Below, one piece after another: positions 8,225-24,588 of a stretch of 64,000 bases of DNA. The notes below the pieces were generated by a model. It was not told the DNA's origin, made no database searches, and saw only the letters and a list, made by a program, of their open reading frames with translations. Within the stretch, counting starts at the first letter, position 1. Each line of letters opens with the position of its first letter. This stretch comes from Alphaproteobacteria bacterium (GTDB lineage: Bacteria > Pseudomonadota > Alphaproteobacteria > Micavibrionales > UBA2020): the NCBI GenBank assembly GCA_016794125.1, contig JAEUKT010000001.1, positions 186,001 through 250,000 on the forward strand, read 5' to 3'. The translations under genes and the position numbers were made by a program.

Positions 8225-9076
8225 TCAGAACATCTGGCTTGCGTCGAAAACGACGGTCGTGTTTGCCCAAGTGTCATACTTATCAGGCGGCAGCTCAAAA
8301 GGCGAGCAATTTGGGTTGCGTACCGCACGCATTGCGCTGTCGGCGATGGCGCGGAAGAAAGTGTCGCTGGCATAGCGCCCGGTATCGACAACGCGGGCGG
8401 ATGCCAATGTCCGGTCGCGGGTGATAACCATAAATATTTCGACCTGCGTGGTATCAATGTCCTTTGCACCGATCGGCACGTTCCAGCATTGCGCCAGCTG
8501 GGCGCGCAACGCGTCCATTTCAGTCATCGTCATGCGCTGGCCGAGCGGAATGTTCTGCCCCTCCTTCGGGGTCGATTCATCCAGCTTCATGTCCGGCACT
8601 TTCGGCATCGGCGGGGTCTTGTCTTTTTCGTCCGAGAGGTTTTTGAGTACGGATGCGAAGTCCTTCTTCGGCTCCTCCGTCACCTTTTTCTTCTTCTCGT
8701 CTTTTTTCTCGAGTTTTTTATCCGGATGCGCGGCGGGATCGACGAGGACTTTTTCTTCCTTCTTCACCACCTCTTCTTTCTTCACCGGCTCCTTGGTCGG
8801 CGTGACGGCTTCGGTCGAGGTATTCTGCTTCGGGGGCGGCGGTTTGGGCGGGGTGGGTTGTTCTTCCTTTTTTTCCTGCTTCTTCACAGGTGTCGGCGCG
8901 ACCTTGGTCGTTTGCGCCATTTTGTCGATGGCGACCAGTTCGACCGAAACGGGCGTTGGAATTTCGTAGTCCTTTTTCAGCCAAGGAATGCTGACCATGG
9001 CCAGCACAAAACATGCCGCATGGAACGCAAGGGATATCGATACAGAACTTCTCCGCATCACCGCTGCCTCCGCCAT
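8225..9076 (-). CDS. tolA: TolA-type protein of the Tol-Pal system
   Basis: The 283-residue protein has one N-terminal membrane span (about 12-32), a long Lys/Glu/Pro-rich periplasmic rod (about 50-165) and a C-terminal TolA domain. That domain includes LRAQLAQCWNVP, VEIFMVITRDRTL and FFRAIADSAMRAVRNPNCSPFELP. TolA passes the proton-motive force from TolQR to TolB/Pal. It is shorter than E. coli TolA because the rod is reduced, which is usual in alphaproteobacteria. It sits between tolR and tolB. Confidence 0.93.
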   Translation of the reverse strand: MAEAAVMRRSSVSISLAFHAACFVLAMVSIPWLKKDYEIPTPVSVELVAIDKMAQTTKVAPTPVKKQEKKEEQPTPPKPPPPKQNTSTEAVTPTKEPVKKEEVVKKEEKVLVDPAAHPDKKLEKKDEKKKKVTEEPKKDFASVLKNLSDEKDKTPPMPKVPDMKLDESTPKEGQNIPLGQRMTMTEMDALRAQLAQCWNVPIGAKDIDTTQVEIFMVITRDRTLASARVVDTGRYASDTFFRAIADSAMRAVRNPNCSPFELPPDKYDTWANTTVVFDASQMF

Positions 9077-13625: not shown

Positions 13626-14128
13626 CGCGCCGCTCCCGCCATCACGCCGCCGATTTTCATTTTGGTCGCGCCGTGATGCGCATGGCAGATAGCGACGGCC
13701 AGCGCGTCGGCTGCATCGCTGGTGGCTTCAACGCCCTGCAATAAAATCTTGATCATCATCTGCACTTGTTCTTTTTCCGCATGGCCTGCGCCGACAACGG
13801 ATTTTTTCACGAGGTTGGCGGGGTATTCCGCGACATCCAGCCCGTAATGCGACGGCGCCATCATCACCACGCCACGCGCAAGGCCGAGCTTCAGCGCCGA
13901 GGCGGGGTTTTTGTTGACGAAGGTTTCCTCGATCGCCGCATGGGTCGGCTTCCACAATTCGATCATCTTGGTGATTTCAACGAACAGGTGGCGCAGCCGC
14001 GCGGCTGTTTCGACTTTGGCATCCGTCTTGATGACACCATGGGCGATATGCTGCAAGCGGTTGCCCGTGACATCGATCACGCCCCAGCCCGTTTTCTGCA
14101 AGCCCGGATCGATGCCGAAAATCCTCAC
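13622..14128 (-). CDS. ruvC: Holliday junction resolvase RuvC
   Basis: The 168-residue RNase H-fold endonuclease cuts Holliday junctions. Acidic catalytic residues are visible in [12 protein letters not shown] (Asp7), [13 protein letters not shown] and [16 protein letters not shown]. Length is normal for the family. The start overlaps the yebC stop by 4 bases. Confidence 0.97.
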
Positions 14129-14877
14129 GCGGAGAGCCTTTCCATGACGGCGTCATCGACTTCAAAATTCGAGAATACGTTCTGCACGTCGTCGCTGTCC
14201 TCCAACGCCTCGATGAGGTCGATGAGTTCCTGGGCCTGCGCCTGATCGAGCTTCACGGTCATGTTAGGCCTCCAGATGACGGCGGCGCTTTCGGGTGCGC
14301 CGAATTTCTTTTCCAGCGCATCCTTGACCGACAGGAAGTCTTCGGGGCGCGCAATCACTTCGTGCTTCGCATCGACGGTTTCCACGTTGTCGGCCCCCGC
14401 CTCTACGCCTGCCTCGAATATAGCATCAAATGATGCCGCCGTGGCGGGATAAGTGATAAGGCCGATCTTGGCGAACATGAAGGTGACCGAGTTCGTCTCC
14501 CCCAGCGTGCCGTTATTCTTGGTGAAGGCGGAGCGCACTTCGGCGGCCGTGCGGTTGCGGTTGTCGGTCAGCGCCTCGACGATAACGGAAACGCCGCCCG
14601 GGCCGCGCCCCTCGTAGCGGATTTCGTCATAATTGCTGGCACCTGCCGCGTTGGGCATCGCCTGCTCGATCGCGCTCTTGATGCGCGAGTTCGGCATGTT
14701 ATCGGCGCGGGCCGCCTGAATAGCGTTGCGCAGGCGCGGGTTGGCATCGGGGTCCGGCAGGCCGGATTTGGCGGCAACGGTGATTTCCCGCGCCCACTTG
14801 TTGAAAATCTTGGCCTTTTTTTTGTCCTGCGCACCTTTACGATGCATGATGTTCTTGAACTGGGAATGACCTGCCAT
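14125..14877 (-). CDS. yebC: YebC/PmpR family transcriptional regulator
   Basis: The 250-residue protein starts [18 protein letters not shown], the classical TACO1/YebC N-terminus, and shows [20 protein letters not shown]. Members bind DNA or assist translation of difficult peptide stretches. ATG 14877 is chosen over an earlier in-frame start at 14898 because MAGHSQF is invariant. It is the first gene of the yebC-ruvCAB run. Confidence 0.96.
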
Positions 14878-15076
14878 GTTTAGCCTGTAGTGCCTCAAGT
14901 GTTAAAGATACGTTAAACCATATTACGGTATAATAGTGTTGCAGAGCCGTTTTAGCACGGGGGACAGCCCGCGGAAAAGCGCGAAATGGCTTGATATTGA
15001 CGGCATAGCACGCTATTTCTGAATACAGGGGGCATCAGAAAACTTTGATTTCATTACAAAAACCCGATAGTGCCGT

Positions 15077-15679
15077 ATGAGCTACCAGTTTAAGAACATC
15101 ACCGTTTTGGTCGTGGAAAGCACGCGGGCGATGTTCGACCTGACACGCTCGGTGCTTCAGGCATTCGGCGTGAACCAGGTCTATTCAGCCTACGGTGCCG
15201 ATGAAGGCTTTGAAACTTTCTGCCGCGTAAACCCCGACCTCGTCATCATCGACTGGCTGGAGGATCCTGCCAACGGACTGGAACTGACGCGCCGCATCCG
15301 GACCGATGCCAAAAGCCCCAACCCCTTCATGCCCATCATCATGATGACGGGCTACAGCCAGAAAAAACGCGTGCTGCAGGCGCGCGATTCAGGCATCACG
15401 GAATTCATTGTAAAACCATTTACCGCCAAGGCACTGTATCAGAAAATTGAACAGTTGGTTGAACGCCCCCGCCACTTCGTTAGCAGCGAAAACTACTTCG
15501 GCCCCGACCGCCGCCGCAAGCGCGACGGGGACTACAAAGGCCCCGACCGTCGCAGCGACCAACAGCCCGAAGTGAAGCCTGCCGCCAGCACCGTCAGCCT
15601 GACAAGTGCGGTCGCAAAGGCGAAAGAGATCAAGGCGCGCCACGACAAGGAAAACCCCGCCAAAAAGGATGAATGGTAA
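15077..15679 (+). CDS. Single-domain response regulator with PDRR-rich tail
   Basis: A CheY-like receiver domain spans about residues 7-130. The predicted phosphoacceptor Asp is in LVIIDWLED, the switch Thr in IIMMTGYS and the invariant Lys in FIVKPF. The leading acidic pair is weak (VVESTR instead of DD). No DNA-binding or enzymatic output domain follows. The tail contains two GPDRR motifs (FGPDRRRK, YKGPDRRS) and a Lys/Ala-rich end, a pattern common in alphaproteobacterial receivers. It overlaps the next gene, so the two probably work together. No clear Shine-Dalgarno precedes the ATG; GATAGT 6 bases upstream could be a -10 for a leaderless transcript. Confidence 0.85.
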   Translation: MSYQFKNITVLVVESTRAMFDLTRSVLQAFGVNQVYSAYGADEGFETFCRVNPDLVIIDWLEDPANGLELTRRIRTDAKSPNPFMPIIMMTGYSQKKRVLQARDSGITEFIVKPFTAKALYQKIEQLVERPRHFVSSENYFGPDRRRKRDGDYKGPDRRSDQQPEVKPAASTVSLTSAVAKAKEIKARHDKENPAKKDEW

Positions 15680-16212
15680 CTCCCATGAACCAGCCCAACA
15701 CAGAAACTTTTGAAGGCCAGAAAAAAGTCCGCAAAGCGGAGCTGATTTCGCCCCCGAACCGGCTGAAGGAAAAAGTCGGCCATGGCGGCATCGACGAAAC
15801 GGTGCTGGGCAAGGCGCAGGAGCTTTTGGAAAATAATACCGTCGATTTCAAACCGATCGCGCTGATGCTGGTCGATCTGTTGCACGAAGCGATTTCGGAT
15901 GCGAAATCCAGCACGACCACCGGCGAGGACGCGATCGAAGCGATGCTCTACCCCGCCATGCAGCTGAAGGCGCAGGGCGGCATGTTCCACTACCCGCTTA
16001 TTTCGGAAATCAGCAATATCCTCGTCAACTTCCTTGAAACTGTGACGGATACGAACAAGGACGTCATGGATATCGTGGTCGCCCATAAAATGTCGATCAA
16101 CGCGGTCATCGCAAGCCAGATCAAGGGCGACGGCGGCAAGGTCGGGCGTGAATTGCGCGACGCTTTGCTGGATGCCTGCGCGCGGTACTACAAGAGCCGC
16201 AAGTCGCAGTAA
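15673..16212 (+). CDS. Hypothetical partner of the response regulator
   Basis: The 179-residue predicted cytoplasmic protein is mainly helical (MLVDLLHEAISDAKS, ISEISNILVNFLETVTDTNKDVMDIVVAHKMSIN). I do not recognise a family. It overlaps the response-regulator stop by 7 bases if the ATG at 15673 is used; a second ATG at 15685 is equally possible, and neither has a well-spaced Shine-Dalgarno. The coupling suggests a downstream partner or phosphotransfer-like helper, but no conserved phospho-His motif is obvious. Confidence 0.7.
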   Translation: MVTPMNQPNTETFEGQKKVRKAELISPPNRLKEKVGHGGIDETVLGKAQELLENNTVDFKPIALMLVDLLHEAISDAKSSTTTGEDAIEAMLYPAMQLKAQGGMFHYPLISEISNILVNFLETVTDTNKDVMDIVVAHKMSINAVIASQIKGDGGKVGRELRDALLDACARYYKSRKSQ

Positions 16213-16230
16213 TAATTTTCAGCTGAATTT

Positions 16231-17493
16231 CTAGCGTGACAGGTTTGAAATGACGGCCGCACGGTCGCTGAGCGCGTCTTCCATCTGATCGGTCGAGCCT
16301 TCATGCGCGATGATCGCGACCTTGCCCTGCTGGGCGACGAACAACAGCGCGGCGGCGGCATCGTTTTCGCCGTCGATGCAGGCAAATTCACCCTCCACCG
16401 TTTCTGCGCCGCGCACGTTTTTCACAGGTTCGCTTTCGTTATGCGCGAAGTCGCCTTTGCAGCGCGCCTTTGCCTGCTCCACATAAGCGCTCACGGCATC
16501 CTGCAGCGTGCCGCCGGCGGGAATTGCGCGCTGTTCGGCGGCACCGAACAAATCCTTGGCAGTCCATGAATACGTATTGCCGCGCTTGGTCGCGGGCAGT
16601 TGCGAACGGGTCATGATGTCGGACAGGAAAGTATCGGGCGCGGCGACAATCTTGGGCGCAACGGGTGTATCCTCAACATCGGGTTTTGCCTCATCGGGGA
16701 ATGTCACATGCACAGCCGCGCGCGCGGCCGCCATACCCTGCTCAGCCGCCAGGCGCTGCTGCTTTTCACGTTCCGCCTGCAGGTCGATATCGGCCTGCAC
16801 GACTTGTTGGGCATTCTGGTGATTTTCCGCTAGCAGCTTCCGGTTTTCAAGGCGCAGGCGTTCGATTTCGTCCTTCAGTGTTGTTTCGGCCGCCTCGACC
16901 CCGATATTCTTGCCGGGCATCGCATCTGGCGGGATCACAGGCTCGCCGGCATCAAGCGGCGTTTTCACGGCGACCGTCACCGGCTTGAATTCCCGGCCGA
17001 CCGAAATATCGCTGGCGCATTTCGTCAGCGCGTTCAGCGCATCCTGCGTACCGCTCAGGGAAAATGACAGTTTCTGGCTGGCGAAAGAAACGCCGAGCGA
17101 GCTTTTTTTCTGCAGTCCCGAATAAAATTCGCGGTCGAGACCCATCTGGATCAGCATCACCTGCGGCGTGCCGGCCAGCGCGATCATCTTGCGCTTCACA
17201 TTGTCGGCGGAAAGATCGACCGTGTATTGGCCGCCTGACTGCAGCAGTTTTTGCGGAAAAGAAATGGCAAGCGAATTCGCCCCTTCCGCATCGCGTGCAA
17301 CGACCAGCATATGGCCGCCTTCGAACACGTTTTTCATCGAGCAGAATTTCAGGCCGTTGGCGGAGGCGGCATTGATCGGCCCCACTTCCCAATCCTGCTT
17401 CGGCAGTGAATCAGCCGCAGCGGAAAGCGCTGCGACAAGCCCGCACACGATGGCGACGAAACCGAAGCCTGCTGTTTTGCGGGTCAGCCGCAT
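16231..17493 (-). CDS. Exported two-domain coiled-coil protein (smaller paralogue)
   Basis: The 420-residue protein has a signal peptide (about 1-27), an N-terminal domain with the pattern WEVGPINAASANGLKFCSMK, a coiled coil (about 205-255) and a C-terminal domain starting FLSDIMTRSQLPATKRGNTY. Both end domains align with those of the 1,368-residue protein encoded just upstream: the FC-M pair, GxYxVxL, FYxxLxxxxxLGVxF, and later LSD, the GNT-W segment and paired Cys. It therefore has the same architecture with a much shorter rod. The N-terminal domain loosely resembles the IalB type. The gene starts 1 base after its paralogue ends. The function is unknown; a cell-envelope role is inferred. 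Confidence 0.75.
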   Translation of the reverse strand: MRLTRKTAGFGFVAIVCGLVAALSAAADSLPKQDWEVGPINAASANGLKFCSMKNVFEGGHMLVVARDAEGANSLAISFPQKLLQSGGQYTVDLSADNVKRKMIALAGTPQVMLIQMGLDREFYSGLQKKSSLGVSFASQKLSFSLSGTQDALNALTKCASDISVGREFKPVTVAVKTPLDAGEPVIPPDAMPGKNIGVEAAETTLKDEIERLRLENRKLLAENHQNAQQVVQADIDLQAEREKQQRLAAEQGMAAARAAVHVTFPDEAKPDVEDTPVAPKIVAAPDTFLSDIMTRSQLPATKRGNTYSWTAKDLFGAAEQRAIPAGGTLQDAVSAYVEQAKARCKGDFAHNESEPVKNVRGAETVEGEFACIDGENDAAAALLFVAQQGKVAIIAHEGSTDQMEDALSDRAAVISNLSR

Positions 17494-17494
17494 C

Positions 17495-20400
17495 TTACTC
17501 GATCACCAGCGTTTCAAAATCGCCCTGCCCTGCATTTGCGGGCTGGCGGCCATACTGCGCGCCGTAGGACGCGGCAGGCTGATAGGACGGCTGGTAAGCG
17601 GGCTGGTAGCCGGCCGAAGATTCTTCGCGGATATTAAAACGGTACTGGCGTTCAGCCGCCGGTGCCACAATCGCATCCGCCTTGCGGACCGCCGCGCTGG
17701 GCGACAGAGCCGGAGCGGCAGCAGACCCGCCGCCGATCACAGAAGCGACGCTGTCGGCGAGACCCTTCACCTGCGCGCCGTCATCCGGGTAGCCGGAATG
17801 CAGCACGGCGTTGAAGCTGCCCGCATCCTGCCAGAAGACCATCGCGGTGGTGTAGGTGTTGCCGGGAACCGGGCAGGAAATATCGGCGCGGGCGAAGCTG
17901 CCCGAAGCGGATTTCTGCACAGGCCCCATGCTGACGGACAGCTGGCTGCAATCGCCGCGATAACGCTCGATATAGCCTTGCGCGTTTTCGCCGAAGCTGC
18001 GGCCCTGGGATGCGGTGTGTTCGTACATGCCGCTCAACCCGTTGGTCGTCCACTGGCGCGTATTGCCTTCGCTGCCGGTGAATTGCGCATCATTGATGCC
18101 CGCATCGGACAGGATGGTTTCGACGGAGGACAGCGACGACGTGCGTGCGCGCACAGGCGCAACGCGCGCGGGCGTGCCATTAAGCGGGGTCGCTGTGACG
18201 GGTGCCGGGAATTCAGAAGTGTCTTCCTGAACGACAGGCTGCATCACGGGCGCGCTGCGCAGCGTCGGCATCGACGGCGTGCCGGCCGCCGTTTCGATTT
18301 GCGACAGGTCGGCGGGCGAAGCTTTCACGGTCGTCATGATCAGCTTGCGCGATGCCTGTTTCGGCGCGGCAAAAACGGGCGATGTATCCGACGAAGCGCG
18401 CACAGCCGCTTTCGCGCCGTTCGGGCGGTGATGCGACATGATGCGGTCGAGGAAAGCCGCAGCGCGGTTTTCGTCGAAGGCGGGATCTTTCTGCACAGCG
18501 GGCACGGCAGCCGGGGCTGCCGCAACAGTTTTTGCGGTGGCCGGCGACGCCGCAACGGGCTCAACCGGCGCTGCCGCAATGCGCTTCAGTTTAATGGCGG
18601 GCTCGGAAGCGGTATGAGCCGCGGCCGGGATTTTGCCGTCGAAGAAGCTTCGCGAGATCGTGGGAGCGGGCATTTCGCTCATGCCGGTGTCTTCGCCAGC
18701 CGCGGGCTCGATCGCCGCCATCTTGCGGTATGCGGCTTCGTTGGCGCGGGCTGTTTCCTCGTCGCGGACGGGCTTGTTGCGGGCGACGATATCATTGGTC
18801 ACGTCGCGAGCATCGAACTTGCGCGATGTCGCGGGCTTGCGCGACGGGATCGGCGATGAAACAGTTTCTTCGGAAATGACCGGCGCTGCGAATTCATCAT
18901 TCGCGGCAAGGGCGACAGGCGCCGCAATCTTTTCTGCAGCAGAAATGCCGGCAGGCGTTTGCGCGGTGCGTTTGGCCGCCTGCAGTTCTTTTTCAGCCAT
19001 CGCGAGTTTTTCGCGGGTAGCAGCAAGTTCGGCCGCGCTCTTGTCCGCCGCCATCTTTTCGGAAGGCGCGGCAACGGGCGCAAGGCGCGCCTGCTGCGCG
19101 TTCTGGGCCAGCTTGCCGGCAAGCGCGAGATTGTCGGATTTCAGTTTTTCGATTTCCGCTTCGGCGGAAGCCAGCTTGGCGTTGTTATCGGCCAGCGCCT
19201 GTTTCGCGGCGGCGGTGTTCTTGCCTTCGCCCTGCGCGTTGAACAGCTTGCCTTCCAGCTCCGCCGTGTTGGACTTCAGGCGGGCAATTTCCGCCTCGGC
19301 AGCCGCCAGCTTGCGTGACTGCTCTTTCGCCGAAGCCTCCTCCGCCGCGGCCGCGACGGTCGTTTGCTTGGCGGCGGATTTTTGAAGCTCGCTCACCTGT
19401 TCGCGCGTGGTGTCGAGCTGGCTTTCGAGCGCGGAGATGCGCGTATGCGCGTCTTTCAGCTCGGTTTCGGCTTTGTTGACTTCCGCTTCGGCGGCAGCCA
19501 GCGCTTCGGCATGTTTTTTTGCGGCGAGGTCTGCGGCCGGCTTGTCGTCGTCATTCACGACGATCAGGCTCTTGCGCAGGCCCTGCATTTCGCGGCGGAC
19601 TGTGGCGACATCTTCCTGCGCCTTGTTCGCGCGGGTGGTTGCGGCCGAACGCTCGGATTCCAGCACCGCCAGTTTCGATTCCAGCTGAGCGACATAGGTG
19701 TCGCGGCTCGCCAGTTCATCGGACAGCTGCTTTTGCTTCTGTGCGAGTGTGCTGTCGGCGCTGTTGGACGCCTGCTTGCTGCGTTCCAGCAGCTTGATAT
19801 AGGTGGCTTTCAGCTCTTCGAACTGCAGCTCCTGCCCTGCCATCTGCTTGCGCAGGTCGGCGGTTTCCTTGTCATGCGCTTCTTTTTCAGCCGCAAGCGA
19901 CGCCTTGACGGCAGCCAGCTGTTTGCTGTCGCTGCCGGTGGCGGCTTCCATCTGTTTTGCGCGGGCGGCTACGTCTGCGCCCTGTTTTTCGGCGGTTGCA
20001 AGTCGCGCTTCCAGCGCCTTTTTGTCAGCCTGCGTGCGATCCAGTTCTTCCTGAACGGCGGCAAGGCTGCGGCCCTGCGTCTCGGCCTTGGCAAGGCGTT
20101 CCTGCAGCGCCTGCTTCTCCTGCTCGGCTTTCAGCACCTGGCCCTGCAGCTCGGTCAGTTTTTGCTTTTCGCCCTTGCCGGCTTTCTGCGCGGCGGTGTT
20201 CTGCTCCAGCGCGAGTTCCAGCTGGCCCTGCAGCGCGGCTGCGCGCGCGGTCGATGCCTGCGCGGTCGCCTGCGCATCAACCGCCGATTTCTGCGCGGTC
20301 GCAAGGCTTGCCTTGAGCGCGTCGCGTTCAGCCGCGATCGCCTGCAGTTTCGCATCGTATTCGGATTGGGTCGCCGACAGCTTCCGGGTCAGCTCGTTCG

Positions 20401-21601
20401 TCTGGGCCACGCGCTCGGCGCTGATGCGCGCAAGTTCCGCCTGTTTCGCGACGAGGCTTGCCTTCAGCGCCTTGTTCTCGGGCGCGGCGGTTTTCGACGC
20501 TTCGATCTTGACGGCTTCCTGTTTCACGGCGGCCGCTTTTTCGTCGAGCTTTTCCTTGCCGCGGCTGTATTCGTCCACCTGCTTGGCGGCGGCGGCGGTT
20601 TTTTCGGCTTCAACCGCTTCCACTTTCGCGGCGGTTTCGGCATCGTTCCATTGGATCTGCTGCGCGGGTACGGCAGCAACTTCGGGCTGCACCTGCGTCT
20701 GCTGCGCGTCCCACAGTTTCGCGGTCGCGCCGGTTGCCGATGCTGCAGGCGCGGAACCGTTCGATTTGGTGGACGCGATCAGCTTGCGCTCGACCTGCTG
20801 TTTTTCCTCGGCGATCTCGGCCGATTTTTGTTTCTGCGCGCCGATTTCGGCCTGCACGCTTTGTTTTTGCGCATCGAGCGCGGCGAGCTGCGTGCGGGCG
20901 GCGACATCGTTGCTTTCCGCTTTCGCCTCGACAGCGTCGAACAGCGCGTCTTTGTCTTTTGCGTCATCGGTCGTGTTCGCATCGGCGAGTTCGTCGCCCG
21001 AAATTTCGGCGAGTTCGCGGTCGAGCGGCGCGAGAGCGGCTTTTTCAACTTCTTTCACTTCAACCGCAGGCATCTTGCCGGGGGCGGAGATGTTGCCGAC
21101 GAGCGACTGCGAGCAATCGACCAGCTGGCGGTAGGATTGCGCAAACTTGTTGAGCGTGAATTCCACGTTCAGCGCAGGAAGGCCGACGCCCAGCGCCGCG
21201 TTGCTCTTCAGCGCCTCGTAAAACGCCTTGTTCTGGCCGACCTGCACGACGACCGAACGCTCGGACGTTGCGCGGCCGGGATACGTGCCTGCCTTGCTGC
21301 CGTTGGTTTTCAGCGCGACCTGGTACACATCGCCCGGCGTGAATTTCGCATCTGTCACATCGACCGCGACCGAGCCGTAACCTTCGGGCGACAGCGCAAA
21401 AGCGAGGCCGAAGTTTTTGTCGAATTTGTTGACCATCGCGCAGAAGCTCTGCCCTTCCGGATCGACGATGCCGACTTTCCATTTGTCGAGCTGTTTGAGC
21501 GCGCCGAGGCTGGCCGGGGTGATCGCCTGTGACGATGTTGCAACAGTGACGAGAGCAGTCAGGGATACCGTCGCAAGGGCGTTGGAAACGGAGCGGCGCA
21601 T
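17495..21601 (-). CDS. Giant exported coiled-coil protein, 1,368 residues
   Basis: A signal peptide (about 1-26) is followed by an N-terminal domain (about 28-175; WKVGIVDPEGQSFCAMVNKF), then an Ala/Glu/Lys/Gln-rich coiled coil of roughly 600-700 residues (about 195-880). Next come a long Ala/Pro-rich linker, a C-terminal domain (about 1185-1300; ETILSDAGINDAQF, YRGDCSQLS) and a Tyr/Gln/Pro tail with YQPAYQPSYQP repeats. The two end domains match the neighbour at 16231-17493. GAGGTGA precedes the ATG. Such a rod could span tens of nanometres, enough to bridge the periplasm. I do not know a named family; cytoskeletal or envelope-spanning roles are speculation. Confidence 0.8.
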   Translation of the reverse strand: MRRSVSNALATVSLTALVTVATSSQAITPASLGALKQLDKWKVGIVDPEGQSFCAMVNKFDKNFGLAFALSPEGYGSVAVDVTDAKFTPGDVYQVALKTNGSKAGTYPGRATSERSVVVQVGQNKAFYEALKSNAALGVGLPALNVEFTLNKFAQSYRQLVDCSQSLVGNISAPGKMPAVEVKEVEKAALAPLDRELAEISGDELADANTTDDAKDKDALFDAVEAKAESNDVAARTQLAALDAQKQSVQAEIGAQKQKSAEIAEEKQQVERKLIASTKSNGSAPAASATGATAKLWDAQQTQVQPEVAAVPAQQIQWNDAETAAKVEAVEAEKTAAAAKQVDEYSRGKEKLDEKAAAVKQEAVKIEASKTAAPENKALKASLVAKQAELARISAERVAQTNELTRKLSATQSEYDAKLQAIAAERDALKASLATAQKSAVDAQATAQASTARAAALQGQLELALEQNTAAQKAGKGEKQKLTELQGQVLKAEQEKQALQERLAKAETQGRSLAAVQEELDRTQADKKALEARLATAEKQGADVAARAKQMEAATGSDSKQLAAVKASLAAEKEAHDKETADLRKQMAGQELQFEELKATYIKLLERSKQASNSADSTLAQKQKQLSDELASRDTYVAQLESKLAVLESERSAATTRANKAQEDVATVRREMQGLRKSLIVVNDDDKPAADLAAKKHAEALAAAEAEVNKAETELKDAHTRISALESQLDTTREQVSELQKSAAKQTTVAAAAEEASAKEQSRKLAAAEAEIARLKSNTAELEGKLFNAQGEGKNTAAAKQALADNNAKLASAEAEIEKLKSDNLALAGKLAQNAQQARLAPVAAPSEKMAADKSAAELAATREKLAMAEKELQAAKRTAQTPAGISAAEKIAAPVALAANDEFAAPVISEETVSSPIPSRKPATSRKFDARDVTNDIVARNKPVRDEETARANEAAYRKMAAIEPAAGEDTGMSEMPAPTISRSFFDGKIPAAAHTASEPAIKLKRIAAAPVEPVAASPATAKTVAAAPAAVPAVQKDPAFDENRAAAFLDRIMSHHRPNGAKAAVRASSDTSPVFAAPKQASRKLIMTTVKASPADLSQIETAAGTPSMPTLRSAPVMQPVVQEDTSEFPAPVTATPLNGTPARVAPVRARTSSLSSVETILSDAGINDAQFTGSEGNTRQWTTNGLSGMYEHTASQGRSFGENAQGYIERYRGDCSQLSVSMGPVQKSASGSFARADISCPVPGNTYTTAMVFWQDAGSFNAVLHSGYPDDGAQVKGLADSVASVIGGGSAAAPALSPSAAVRKADAIVAPAAERQYRFNIREESSAGYQPAYQPSYQPAASYGAQYGRQPANAGQGDFETLVIE

Positions 21602-21758
21602 TGTTCACCTCGTAAAGGGAGTAGCGTTTGAAATAACTGTAAATTCTGAGCCACCATAATAGGGATTCGCGGTCTTTTTTCCAGTCCCTTTTTGCGTATT
21701 GTAAGGCGTTGATAAGGCTAGGTTATGAAAACATTCTTTCTTTTTCTTTCAGATTACG

Positions 21759-21764
21759 TATAAT
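21759..21764 (+). promoter_or_regulatory. Perfect -10 hexamer upstream of ankyrin gene
   Basis: TATAAT lies 42 bases before the ATG of the ankyrin gene at 21807, with only a weak -35 (TCTTTC, 18-base spacing). The surrounding 80 bases are clearly A/T-rich. The predicted start is near 21771. Confidence 0.4.
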
Positions 21765-21806
21765 CTGCGACAGTTTATTTTCTAATTAGATTAGGCGTTC
21801 AAAAAC

Positions 21807-22346
21807 ATGTCCTCGCCCGACTTCAATAACGCCGCCAATCATGGGGAACAGCCCGTGCAGCTTGTACGGAAACTGTTTCTGGCGGGCGTGGCTGCAGGGG
21901 ATGTGAATATCGTGGGCGAAGTCCTGAAATCGCATCCTGAAGCGGCTAACTGGGGGCGGCCGCCCTTCCCGTTTCGGTCTTTCGCTGAATCCGTGACGGC
22001 ATTAATGGTTGCCGCGGAGAACGGTCACGCGCCTGTCGTGCGCATGTTGCTGCAGGCGGGCGCAAACGGCAACGCACAGCAAAGCCGTGGCTGGACTGCG
22101 CTTATGTACGCGGCGGAGCGCGGACACAGTGAAGTCGTGGATGCCTTGCTGGAACATAGCGTAGATACAGCTATCACGAATGAAAACGGCGATACGGCAG
22201 CTGTCATGGCGGCCAAGCGCTTCGATTACGAAACCGCCCGCCGCATCAACGATGCATTAAAAATTTTCGGCCTGAGCAAGCTTTCGAGCGGGGCAGGCCG
22301 CCCGGTCAACGCGCCTGCCACCGCCCGCTGGAAAAAGAAGCCGTAA
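21807..22346 (+). CDS. Ankyrin-repeat protein, 179 residues
   Basis: Ankyrin repeats cover about residues 45-150, with matches such as SVTALMVAAENGHAPVVRMLLQAGAN, GWTALMYAAERGHSEVVDALLEH and GDTAAVMAAKRFDYETARRI. No signal peptide is seen. Ankyrin proteins mediate protein binding; the partner is unknown. It is one of four ankyrin genes in this window. The C-terminal tail is basic (ATARWKKKP). A small membrane-protein gene converges on it, with adjacent stop codons. Confidence 0.88.
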   Translation: MSSPDFNNAANHGEQPVQLVRKLFLAGVAAGDVNIVGEVLKSHPEAANWGRPPFPFRSFAESVTALMVAAENGHAPVVRMLLQAGANGNAQQSRGWTALMYAAERGHSEVVDALLEHSVDTAITNENGDTAAVMAAKRFDYETARRINDALKIFGLSKLSSGAGRPVNAPATARWKKKP

Positions 22347-22430
22347 TCAGTTCCCGACCATGCCGAACATATAGAGCAGGATGATAACGGGGATCGGAAT
22401 ACCGACGAGCCAGAGAATAATACCTTTCAT
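22347..22430 (-). CDS. 27-residue single-span membrane protein
   Basis: This short frame starts at ATG 22430 and ends in TGA at 22347. It is preceded by a strong Shine-Dalgarno (GGAGGC, 22435-22440) with 4-base spacing. The product starts MKGIILWLVGIPIPVIILLY and continues MFGMVGN, essentially one transmembrane helix with a central IPIP kink. Very short proteins with a similar (I/L)W-x-x-GIP pattern occur in other proteobacteria as unnamed genes. It is too small for most gene finders. The Shine-Dalgarno plus hydrophobic pattern makes it a convincing gene; its function is unknown. Confidence 0.72.
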   Translation of the reverse strand: MKGIILWLVGIPIPVIILLYMFGMVGN

Positions 22431-22498
22431 AAGTGCCTCCTTGCAGGGTTCTTAAGTCTCGCCCCGCCAATGCTTATGACACCCGCTATGTTCCCTTG

Positions 22499-22527
22499 TT
22501 TACTCGGGGCGTTGAATTCGCTAGGCT
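22499..22527 (+). promoter_or_regulatory. Promoter giving a predicted leaderless TerB-like mRNA
   Basis: TTTACT (22499-22504) and TAGGCT (22522-22527) have 17-base spacing. The predicted start lies at or next to the A of the ATG at 22534. No Shine-Dalgarno is present between them. Confidence 0.45.
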
Positions 22528-22533
22528 CTTCAC

Positions 22534-23052
22534 ATGACAAACACATCCGTACCCCCTGTTAAAAAGTCCTTCTCCGAAAGCATGCTTTACATGTGGCGGA
22601 GCATTATCCTGATGGCCCATGCCGATGGCGTGGTGCATGATAAGGAACGCCAGCTGTTCGACCGCATCTTCGTGAAAATCGCGAAGGCCTATGACGCGAC
22701 ACCGGAGCAAATGCAGCTTCTGGCCCGCGACCTGTCGGAACAGCAGGATTTCGATGAAATCACCCGCCATGTGACCGACCCGGAACACAAGGCCGTGCTG
22801 GTCTATTTCGCGCAGGTCGTCGCCTCCATCGACGGCGTCCTTGCCTATGACGAGGCATCCATGATCGGCCGCCTGCAGGGCGCGTTCGGGCTGAAACCGG
22901 ACACCGAAGAAGTCATGAAGAAAATCCGCGCCGAGATTTCGGAGCAGATGCAAAGACGGAAAGCGGAAGTCGAGACCGCCACGCCCCGCGAACCCATCCA
23001 GTACGCGCTTGACGCGCTGCTGTTCCGTCTTGGCATGGAACGGCTGGATTAA
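22534..23052 (+). CDS. TerB-like (tellurite resistance family) helical protein
   Basis: The 172-residue protein contains the two acidic helix-turn motifs typical of TerB-like domains: MAHADGVVHDKERQLFDRIF (about 28-47) and VASIDGVLAYDEASMIGRL (about 98-116). These are thought to bind metal or act as a membrane-associated scaffold. No other ter genes are nearby, so a role in tellurite resistance is not implied. The next gene starts 2 bases after its stop. The mRNA is predicted to be leaderless. Confidence 0.8.
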   Translation: MTNTSVPPVKKSFSESMLYMWRSIILMAHADGVVHDKERQLFDRIFVKIAKAYDATPEQMQLLARDLSEQQDFDEITRHVTDPEHKAVLVYFAQVVASIDGVLAYDEASMIGRLQGAFGLKPDTEEVMKKIRAEISEQMQRRKAEVETATPREPIQYALDALLFRLGMERLD

Positions 23053-23054
23053 TC

Positions 23055-23720
23055 ATGTCCCTGCGCAAAAAACTCAGCGATATGTTCGGCGATAAACAGG
23101 GCGCGGCGATCAAGCGCGTCTATAAAAAAATTGAATCCGGCGCGGAATGGAAAGACATCAAGGACGATGTGTTCCCGCAAGACGGCAAAGTGGGCGCACC
23201 GACATCCGCCGTTGTCCACGCCATCCTGCTCCACAAACGCTTCGACCTGCTGACGCCCGTCGCGGCGGAGGCCGGCGACTGGATCGGCGTGATCGACCTT
23301 GTCTATCGCAAGAGCGAAGTCGGCAAAGTGCCGGCTGCGCGCGCGCAGGAACTCGAAGAAATCTACAACGCGCTGAAGGCCGCGCCGACACACGGCAAGA
23401 AACTCGCGGCAAGTTTTGTCGAGACGGTCGAAAACTGGGCCTGCCAGCGCGATTTCGAAGCGGGTTATGACTGGGCGAAAACGAAACCCGAATTCGTCCC
23501 CGTCCCGCCCCTTGGCTTGGCATCGCTTGCCGAACGCCCCATCGACGGCAATCCGCTTGCCATGAAGATTTTGAACTCCCCCGCGGAAATCCAGCGCGCG
23601 ATCGAAGCCGCCGAATGGGTGGAGAGCGGCCACGACCGCGACGACGCGATTGCGAACCTCAAAGACTGGCGCGAAAAACTTGCCAAAAATCCGCCGAAAC
23701 CGACCGGGCCGGTATTTTAA
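23055..23720 (+). CDS. Hypothetical protein downstream of TerB-like gene
   Basis: The 221-residue soluble protein has a basic N-terminus (MSLRKKLSDMFGDKQG). It has helical segments (KVPAARAQELEEIYNALKAA, LAASFVETVENW) and a C-terminal helical part with AAEWVESGHDRDDAIANLKD. I recognise no family. It starts 2 bases after the TerB-like gene and should be translated from the same mRNA, so a joint role is likely. Confidence 0.72.
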   Translation: MSLRKKLSDMFGDKQGAAIKRVYKKIESGAEWKDIKDDVFPQDGKVGAPTSAVVHAILLHKRFDLLTPVAAEAGDWIGVIDLVYRKSEVGKVPAARAQELEEIYNALKAAPTHGKKLAASFVETVENWACQRDFEAGYDWAKTKPEFVPVPPLGLASLAERPIDGNPLAMKILNSPAEIQRAIEAAEWVESGHDRDDAIANLKDWREKLAKNPPKPTGPVF

Positions 23721-23741
23721 GAGGCAGCACCTTCACAAAAC

Positions 23742-23770
23742 TTGACAATCACGCCCGATACGCCTACAAA
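23742..23770 (+). promoter_or_regulatory. Sigma70 promoter with consensus -35
   Basis: TTGACA (23742-23747) and TACAAA (23765-23770) are 17 bases apart, giving a start near 23777. It would drive a leader of about 120 bases ahead of the ankyrin gene at 23898. Confidence 0.6.
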
Positions 23771-23833
23771 CACAACTGCGCCGATTTGAATGCTGACAGC
23801 TTGCGGGCGCGTTATAAATACTGCTAAAGCGTT

Positions 23834-23877
23834 GGCGGACTGGTTCCGCCCTCGTGCTACACGTCGGCGGTTTTTTT
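23834..23877 (+). terminator. Attenuator-like leader: overlapping anti-terminator and terminator
   Basis: The terminator stem is CCGCC (23846-23850)/GGCGG (23866-23870) with an inner CGTG/CACG stem, followed by seven T (23871-23877). The CCGCC arm can instead pair with GGCGGA at 23834-23839 to form a competing hairpin (23834-23850). The two are mutually exclusive. The downstream gene has its own strong Shine-Dalgarno at about 23884-23890. This could be a regulated attenuator or the 3' end of a separate ~100-nt RNA. Confidence 0.65.
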
Positions 23878-23897
23878 ATTCCCGAGGAGGAATAACC

Positions 23898-24272
23898 ATG
23901 TCCTACACCTATACCGGCTCCCAAAACAATTACGACCTGAACACCGACACCGTCTGGACGCGCCGCAGCGACGCCAGCGTATCGCAAGGCTTTGAATCCA
24001 TCGCCCTGTTCCGCGCCGCGAAAGAAGGCGACGCCACCAAAATCCGCGTGCTGGTTGAATCCGGCGCCGATACGGATGCCGCCGACGAAAACGGCTGGAC
24101 GCCCATTTTCTGGGCGATCAAGAACCGTCATGTAAAGGCGGTGGCGGAATTGATTATCGCGGGCGCGTCGCTGGCCGCCGAAGCCCGCAACGGCCTCACC
24201 CCTCTCTCCCTTGCTGTCAAGGTCGGCAGCCCGCTGATTATCAGTTTGGTGTCGCAGGCGGGGGCGAAGTAG
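23898..24272 (+). CDS. Small ankyrin-repeat protein, 124 residues
   Basis: ATG 23898 follows GAGGAGGAATAACC, a near-perfect Shine-Dalgarno, and is preferred to an in-frame ATG at 23790 that lies before the terminator hairpin. Two to three ankyrin units are visible: IALFRAAKEGDATKIRVLVE, NGWTPIFWAIKNRHVKAVAE and NGLTPLSLAVKVGSPLIISL. The first 40 residues are polar and Tyr/Thr-rich. Its expression is probably controlled through the attenuator-like leader. Confidence 0.87.
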   Translation: MSYTYTGSQNNYDLNTDTVWTRRSDASVSQGFESIALFRAAKEGDATKIRVLVESGADTDAADENGWTPIFWAIKNRHVKAVAELIIAGASLAAEARNGLTPLSLAVKVGSPLIISLVSQAGAK

Positions 24273-24385
24273 TCAGATATCGATGGCATCGCGCGGCATG
24301 AAAACCCTGTTTTGCATTTTTTGCATGTTTTGATGGAATTTGCGTGAAAACGGGTTGTGTCGCCCGCCGGTGGCGCGACAGGCTA

Positions 24386-24399
24386 TTGATTTACATCAA
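24386..24399. promoter_or_regulatory. FNR/FixK-type binding site
   Basis: TTGATTTACATCAA matches the FNR/FixK consensus TTGAT-N4-ATCAA exactly. It is not upstream of a known start codon, since both flanking genes converge here. It is either fortuitous or controls an unannotated RNA. Confidence 0.5.
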
Positions 24400-24414
24400 T
24401 AAAATTTTCGGGTT

Positions 24415-24436
24415 CGAAAAGTAGCGTCACTTTTCG
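24415..24436. other. 8-bp perfect hairpin
   Basis: The arms CGAAAAGT and ACTTTTCG enclose a 6-base loop. No T run follows on either side. CGAAAAGT recurs at about 24574-24581 inside the second direct repeat. Confidence 0.5.
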
Positions 24437-24479
24437 GCGGTTCTACGGTGGGTTTACGGGCCTTCTGCGCACATACCAG

Positions 24480-24588
24480 TTTTTGAAAATGCTGTGAATT
24501 CAAGGAGTTACAAAACGGGAATTCAGCGATTTTGAAAATGGGAGTTGAGGAGATTCAAGGGGTTACAAAGACTCGAAAAGTGGGAATT
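24480..24588 (+). repeat. Two imperfect direct repeats
   Basis: Copy A (24480-24522) and copy B (24530-24588) share, in the same order, TTTTGAAAATG, ATTCAAGG(A/G)GTTACAAA and GGGAATT. Copy B has insertions between the blocks. There are only two copies, so this is neither CRISPR nor a standard iteron array. It may be the remnant of a duplication or a protein-binding array. Confidence 0.6.

Follow-up and report, generated by a model that had tools for sequence, protein, structure and literature searches.

A conserved pair of tandem exported paralogs with homologous end domains and spacers of unequal length in the order of Micavibrio

Two adjacent genes in a 64,000-nucleotide stretch of an alphaproteobacterial genome (positions 186,001 to 250,000 of contig JAEUKT010000001.1; hereafter the window) encode a long and a short protein that, as judged from alignments and profile comparisons, are paralogs of ancient origin, homologous at both ends. 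Two known folds are predicted for the end domains, and we found no curated family that combines them; the architecture is real, conserved and unnamed.

Results

The gene pair and its products

The window organism belongs to the order of Micavibrio and to a different family within it. Both genes have open frames, and a genome-wide search with the short protein as a query matched these two genes only. An earlier interpretation made from the letters alone (the sequence-only reading) had placed the genes 1 base apart, which is confirmed, as a single base lies between the stop and the next ATG. The two genes probably form one operon, with the short partner encoded on the same transcript. Both proteins begin with an export signal and, on inspection of their sequences, neither has a second membrane anchor. 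The features are as follows.

17495..21601, minus strand: first gene, encoding the long protein of 1,368 aa (signal peptide, N domain, 980-residue spacer with the rod, C domain, conserved tail)
21524..21601, minus strand: signal peptide of the long protein, spanning residues 1-26 and likely cleaved after SSQA (sequence reading and equivalent ortholog segments)
21071..21505, minus strand: N domain of the long protein, residues 33-177, IalB/MotY-N-like fold (from ortholog L048), Cys54 and Cys163
18131..21070, minus strand: spacer of the long protein, residues 178-1157 (sequence and ortholog model)
17723..18130, minus strand: C domain of the long protein, residues 1158-1293, PsbP/Mog1-like fold (from an ortholog), Cys1218 and Cys1243
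17498..17518, minus strand: C-terminal tail FETLVIE, residues 1362-1368, conserved among orthologs
17494..17494, minus strand: the 1 intergenic base between the long-gene stop and the short-gene ATG
16231..17493, minus strand: second gene, encoding the short protein of 420 aa (signal peptide, N domain, short helix, C domain)
16975..17415, minus strand: N domain of the short protein, HMM envelope residues 27-173, pLDDT mostly >90, Cys51 and Cys159
16714..16902, minus strand: lone predicted helix of the short protein (AF2), residues 198-260
16234..16629, minus strand: C domain of the short protein, residues 289-420, Cys345 and Cys372

The spacer of the long protein is proline-free and mainly helical at about residues 193-284 and 375-841, and proline-rich thereafter, its final 300 residues included; this later part is probably disordered. 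In 4 of about 17 segments scanned along the rod, all between residues 477 and 756, heptad-like periodicity lies above the 99th percentile of shuffles. One proline-free stretch has 313 residues, and such stretches reach 752 in relatives; at 1.5 A per residue, 313 residues would extend for about 47 nm if they formed one continuous helix. The AF2 models cover monomers only. One modeled ortholog of the long protein, 1,070 aa in length, has its N domain followed by three helices (77, 174 and 125 residues), then disorder, then the C domain and finally a tail that is again disordered; in one ortholog pLDDT is 70-90 for the rod and <50 for the tail. For the short protein, modeled with 43 sequences, the mean pLDDT is 84.9, with both ends mostly >90, and the spacer is about 115 residues. 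The sequence-only reading had put the rods at about 650 and 50 residues, which has to be revised: the spacers have 980 and about 115 residues and the helical cores are shorter (approximately 375-841 and 198-260).

The end of the long protein might have a role of its own. The pattern T[VLI][VI][VI][QE] terminates all 13 first-gene products of family f1, including those lacking the C domain, and among 1,508 complete ORFs it is confined to them; the stretch preceding it is variable and probably disordered. Such a tail may be a docking peptide; in the ortholog model the tail (pLDDT <50) is not docked onto the rest of the chain.

As for the surroundings of the pair, a stand-alone response regulator (15077-15679) and an unnamed 179-aa protein (15673-16212) are encoded with overlapping ends. 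These two genes adjoin the pair in f1 genera g1, g3 and g4, where they lie between the pair and yebC-ruvCAB-tol. Positions 21807-24272 hold two ankyrin-repeat genes enclosing a TerB-like gene and one for an unnamed 221-aa protein, a cluster that stays with the pair in the near relatives L050 and L052. Rfam gave no matches across 14000-24500.

Common origin of the long and the short protein

The N domains of the two proteins match each other with 42 bits in phmmer and with a local alignment score of 133 (shuffled maximum 54); for the C domains the corresponding values are 24 bits and 84 (shuffled maximum 61). Neither the N nor the C score was reached by any of 500 shuffles. When profiles built from orthologs were compared, the ends aligned with 99.8% (N vs N) and 97.8% (C vs C). 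The sequence-only reading is borne out in its description of tandem exported paralogs with shared ends on rods of unequal length. The ends, however, are homologous rather than identical as it had stated, with 25% identity for N and 22% for C. Exactly two cysteines are present in each of the 102 N and 82 C copies examined, and no cysteine falls within the long protein's rod. Common ancestry of the N domain with the C domain was considered as well and rejected, the profile comparison giving <1% and phmmer producing no N-C alignment.

Known folds in an unnamed combination

In structure comparisons the predicted N domain falls with Bartonella IalB (3dtd; Z 11.3 and 11.6 for two models, 123-125 of 147 residues), MotY (2zf8; Z 10.9 over 128 residues) and a chain of the LPHT ring (Z 10.8 and 11.7). 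MotY chains in the PDB have 271-272 residues and the LPHT-ring chain 270-271, and we infer that this chain is MotY. The predicted C domain is similar in fold to EagT6/SciW, DcrB, PsbP, LpqN and Mog1 (Z 8-12), single scores being 12.2 for EagT6, 11.4 for DcrB and 10-11 for Mog1. Thus, the models predict an IalB/MotY-N fold for the N end and a PsbP/Mog1/DcrB fold for the C end.

At the level of sequence families the picture is different. The sequence-only reading knew of no named family, and Pfam and NCBIfam are indeed blank for both ends, the curated DUF1795, PsbP, Mog1 and DcrB models included in the case of the C domain. The Pfam model of IalB (PF06776) matches neither protein, and the best of 43 relatives attains 15.6 bits (E 0.018), short of the cut-off at 22.1; the N-domain profile compared with two true IalB proteins from one and the same genome gave a weak score of at most 33%. 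Pfam finds no OmpA-type domain in either protein, nor are Rod_CreS and Filament among their matches; each of the latter two matches one of the 43 relatives (E 0.0017 and 0.001), which is typical of coiled coils. Searches of Pfam, NCBIfam and PDB sequences with the whole proteins yielded nothing beyond coiled-coil noise (SMC, HOOK, Med9), which was discarded. Matches to well-described families therefore exist in fold (IalB/MotY-N and PsbP/Mog1) but not in sequence family.

Proteins of the IalB family (Bartonella IalB, 3dtd; S. meliloti RgsG) resemble the pair in the predicted fold of the N domain and in having a signal peptide, but IalB itself has neither a rod nor a second domain, and the N domain of the pair stays below the Pfam cut-off. 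MotY of the flagellar T ring (2zf8, 8z5n) has the same N-domain fold and is also periplasmic with a second domain; that domain is an OmpA-type peptidoglycan binder, whereas here it is PsbP/Mog1-like and a rod stands in between. The PsbP/Mog1/DcrB/EagT6 (DUF1795) proteins share the fold of the C domain, which here carries two cysteines without exception and in most cases comes after an N domain. TolA, encoded in the same window (8225-9076), is similar in its long Ala/Glu/Lys-rich helix and small C-terminal head; unlike the pair it is anchored in the inner membrane and has no N head. The window genome has its own TolA.

Fusion partners and cellular location

Single end domains are found in other combinations. 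Nine genes of the order that carry only the N domain were scanned with Pfam, and eight of them contain TcpQ modules; the ninth (L139), which lies on contig 4 of G118 and outside the tandem locus, has none. L137:7571-8677 and seven similar first genes are fusions of the N domain with TcpQ, located directly upstream of a gene with the N-rod-C architecture, and first genes of f4, among others, contain TcpQ modules. The protein TcpQ serves to localise a secretin (PMC4971541). One relative from an alphaproteobacterium not belonging to the order (L121:6109-7389) has the N domain fused to a trypsin/HtrA/DegP-like protease. In genus g2 of f1 the C domain is missing from the first gene, and a separate gene (L149:5863-7539, L150:5877-7421, L151:6382-8028) encodes a C domain, a proline-rich linker and a barrel-like half. 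This half is, by its sequence, a probable outer-membrane beta-barrel, although that of L149 has no Pfam or PDB sequence match. In the C-domain tree, which is the quick tree of the two, L149, L150 and L151 group with the f1 short proteins.

Because export signals, cysteine pairs and envelope-type fusion partners are found together, we infer that the system is periplasmic. Signal peptides, paired cysteines in the ends and a cysteine-free rod fit an oxidising, extracytoplasmic place.

Occurrence and gain of the rod

A search with these proteins across alphaproteobacteria showed the pair or one of its members to be present in 17 of 18 genomes of the family and near order-wide (131 of 142 genomes), with compact relatives elsewhere. 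At the same threshold, at least 19 genomes outside the order match among 385 drawn from the class; this is a lower bound, as few first-look candidates per genome were scored there. In 15 such outside proteins the N and C domains are separated by 2-47 residues (median 14). Within the order the spacer measures 305-1,288 residues in all 29 second genes measured in families f4, f6 and f7, 689-1,126 in f1 long proteins, 115-330 in f1 short proteins and 31-352 in f2. Its length differs by a factor of about 1.6 inside one family and of more than four across the order. Among 14 ortholog pairs the N head is better conserved than the rod in all 14 and the C head in 10. N-domain relatives of the short protein were also noticed on large Azospirillum replicons (NC_016585.1, NZ_CP029830.1, NZ_CP054621.1 and NC_013855.1), one of the four having an annotation beneath the match, 'hypothetical protein'.

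In f4, f6 and f7 the locus reads ompA - prfB - [N-only gene] - N-rod-C gene - PAS/GGDEF/EAL - phaR - phaA - phaB - crp - AsmA, certain genes being absent in certain genomes. Four of the 20 outside loci are syntenic with it: in L112 and L115 the compact gene is beside both the PAS/GGDEF/EAL gene and phaR, and in L122 and L127 it is beside the PAS/GGDEF/EAL gene; the other 16 show no such synteny. The synteny at the four loci supports both orthology and the insertion of the rod between two old domains. Rods of 300-1,290 residues have thus probably been inserted into an old compact two-domain protein.

In the N-domain tree, f1 first genes, f1 second genes, f4-type second genes and outside copies form separate groups. 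Copies from f2 join each of the f1 groups, which implies that the f1 duplication predates f1. The gene trees separate the paralogs well, while the correspondence between f1 and f4 genes is not settled by them. In most f1 genomes the pair adjoins yebC-ruvCAB-tol. A Tol-Pal role argued from this neighbourhood was considered and dropped, since adjacency to tol-pal is kept only in part of f1 and in one f2 genome and not across the order; the gene surroundings point to no firm pathway.

Discussion

What might such proteins do? Likeness in fold does not by itself show the function of the heads. Our tentative preference, held at somewhat less than even confidence, is that the pair are secreted periplasmic tethers or scaffolds whose heads dock on envelope machinery and whose rods associate along the wall. 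Each end domain would be locked by one disulfide and would dock on an envelope partner, be it outer-membrane, peptidoglycan-bound or ring-shaped machinery. The helical rods would pack side by side, along the wall rather than across it, and in this way might keep the partners at a flexible but limited distance. The short protein could co-assemble with the long one through the homologous ends, and rod length would tune the reach while being fairly free to drift. The 'two-component' idea of the sequence-only reading is reasonable in this respect, since the pair is conserved. A lead for function comes by analogy from RgsG, a periplasmic IalB-domain protein that is essential for polar growth of S. 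meliloti and whose network also has TolQ (PMC7327166).

A counterpoint to the tether reading is the Ala/Pro-rich composition of much of the spacer, which may be no more than a linker there. In a rival reading the heads would do the work, as DcrB/EagT-like or IalB-like binding or chaperone modules, and the rod would be a weakly constrained low-complexity linker of drifting length. Compact rodless relatives outside the order, Ala-rich and Pro-rich stretches and the free variation in length (929 vs 546 residues within one genus) are all consistent with it. We nonetheless consider it unlikely, since long spacers are kept in every f4/f6/f7 second gene measured and in the f1 long proteins, and part of the rod has heptad periodicity above that of shuffles.

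Another possibility, to which we give little credence, is a periskeletal filament, with the long and short paralogs co-polymerising in the periplasm and bending the cell like CrvA/CrvB of Vibrio cholerae. Micavibrio is a curved rod (PMC3189940), the paralogs are two and in tandem, and the rods exceed the length needed to span the periplasm. CrvA and CrvB make periskeletal polymers at the concave face (PMC8938487); they are likewise paired periplasmic proteins able to form extended structures, a likeness drawn by description only, from that paper and general knowledge. However, the short protein has little rod, and the existence of compact rodless relatives in other alphaproteobacteria indicates that the end domains have another basic job.

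A role as accessory scaffold of a polar machine, either the flagellar motor or a type IV pilus/secretin, with the N domain placed as MotY-N is in the T ring and the rods reaching into the wall, is likewise rather improbable. It would agree with the MotY-N-like fold (Z 10.9-11.7), with the TcpQ modules of f4 and other first genes and with FlgH being present in 130 of the 142 order genomes. Yet the OmpA domain of MotY is absent from both proteins, the labelled neighbourhoods held no recognisable flagellar or pilus gene, and FlgH is so nearly universal that its co-occurrence does not discriminate. Co-occurrence with FlgH and with TcpQ, also nearly universal in the order, was on this ground rejected as a functional clue.

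The periplasm is roughly 20-30 nm wide. The sequence-only reading, right about the architecture, is not supported in its idea of a simple envelope-spanning device: a straight strut or ruler running from inner to outer membrane and setting their distance would suit exported, rod-like, paired proteins, the short one of which could fit inside the periplasm, but it is very improbable, because a helix of about 47 nm, as 313 proline-free residues could give, would go far beyond the periplasm, close relatives differ strongly in length, unlike a ruler, and no second anchor is seen.

Under the tether or scaffold reading or otherwise, the pair offers a natural before/after case, with the same two domains having almost no spacer elsewhere in the class and 300-1,290 extra residues here. 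This comparison lets one ask what a rod adds to an envelope protein. These are large envelope proteins that occur nearly throughout an order including a predatory genus, and no library tested names them. In M. aeruginosavorus, where the machinery of predation is poorly understood, they are candidates for structural factors. As a long shot, one might even imagine an order-wide two-subunit skeleton of filaments or tethers, created when rods were inserted into an old compact protein, which would shape either the cell or the pole at which epibiotic predators feed.
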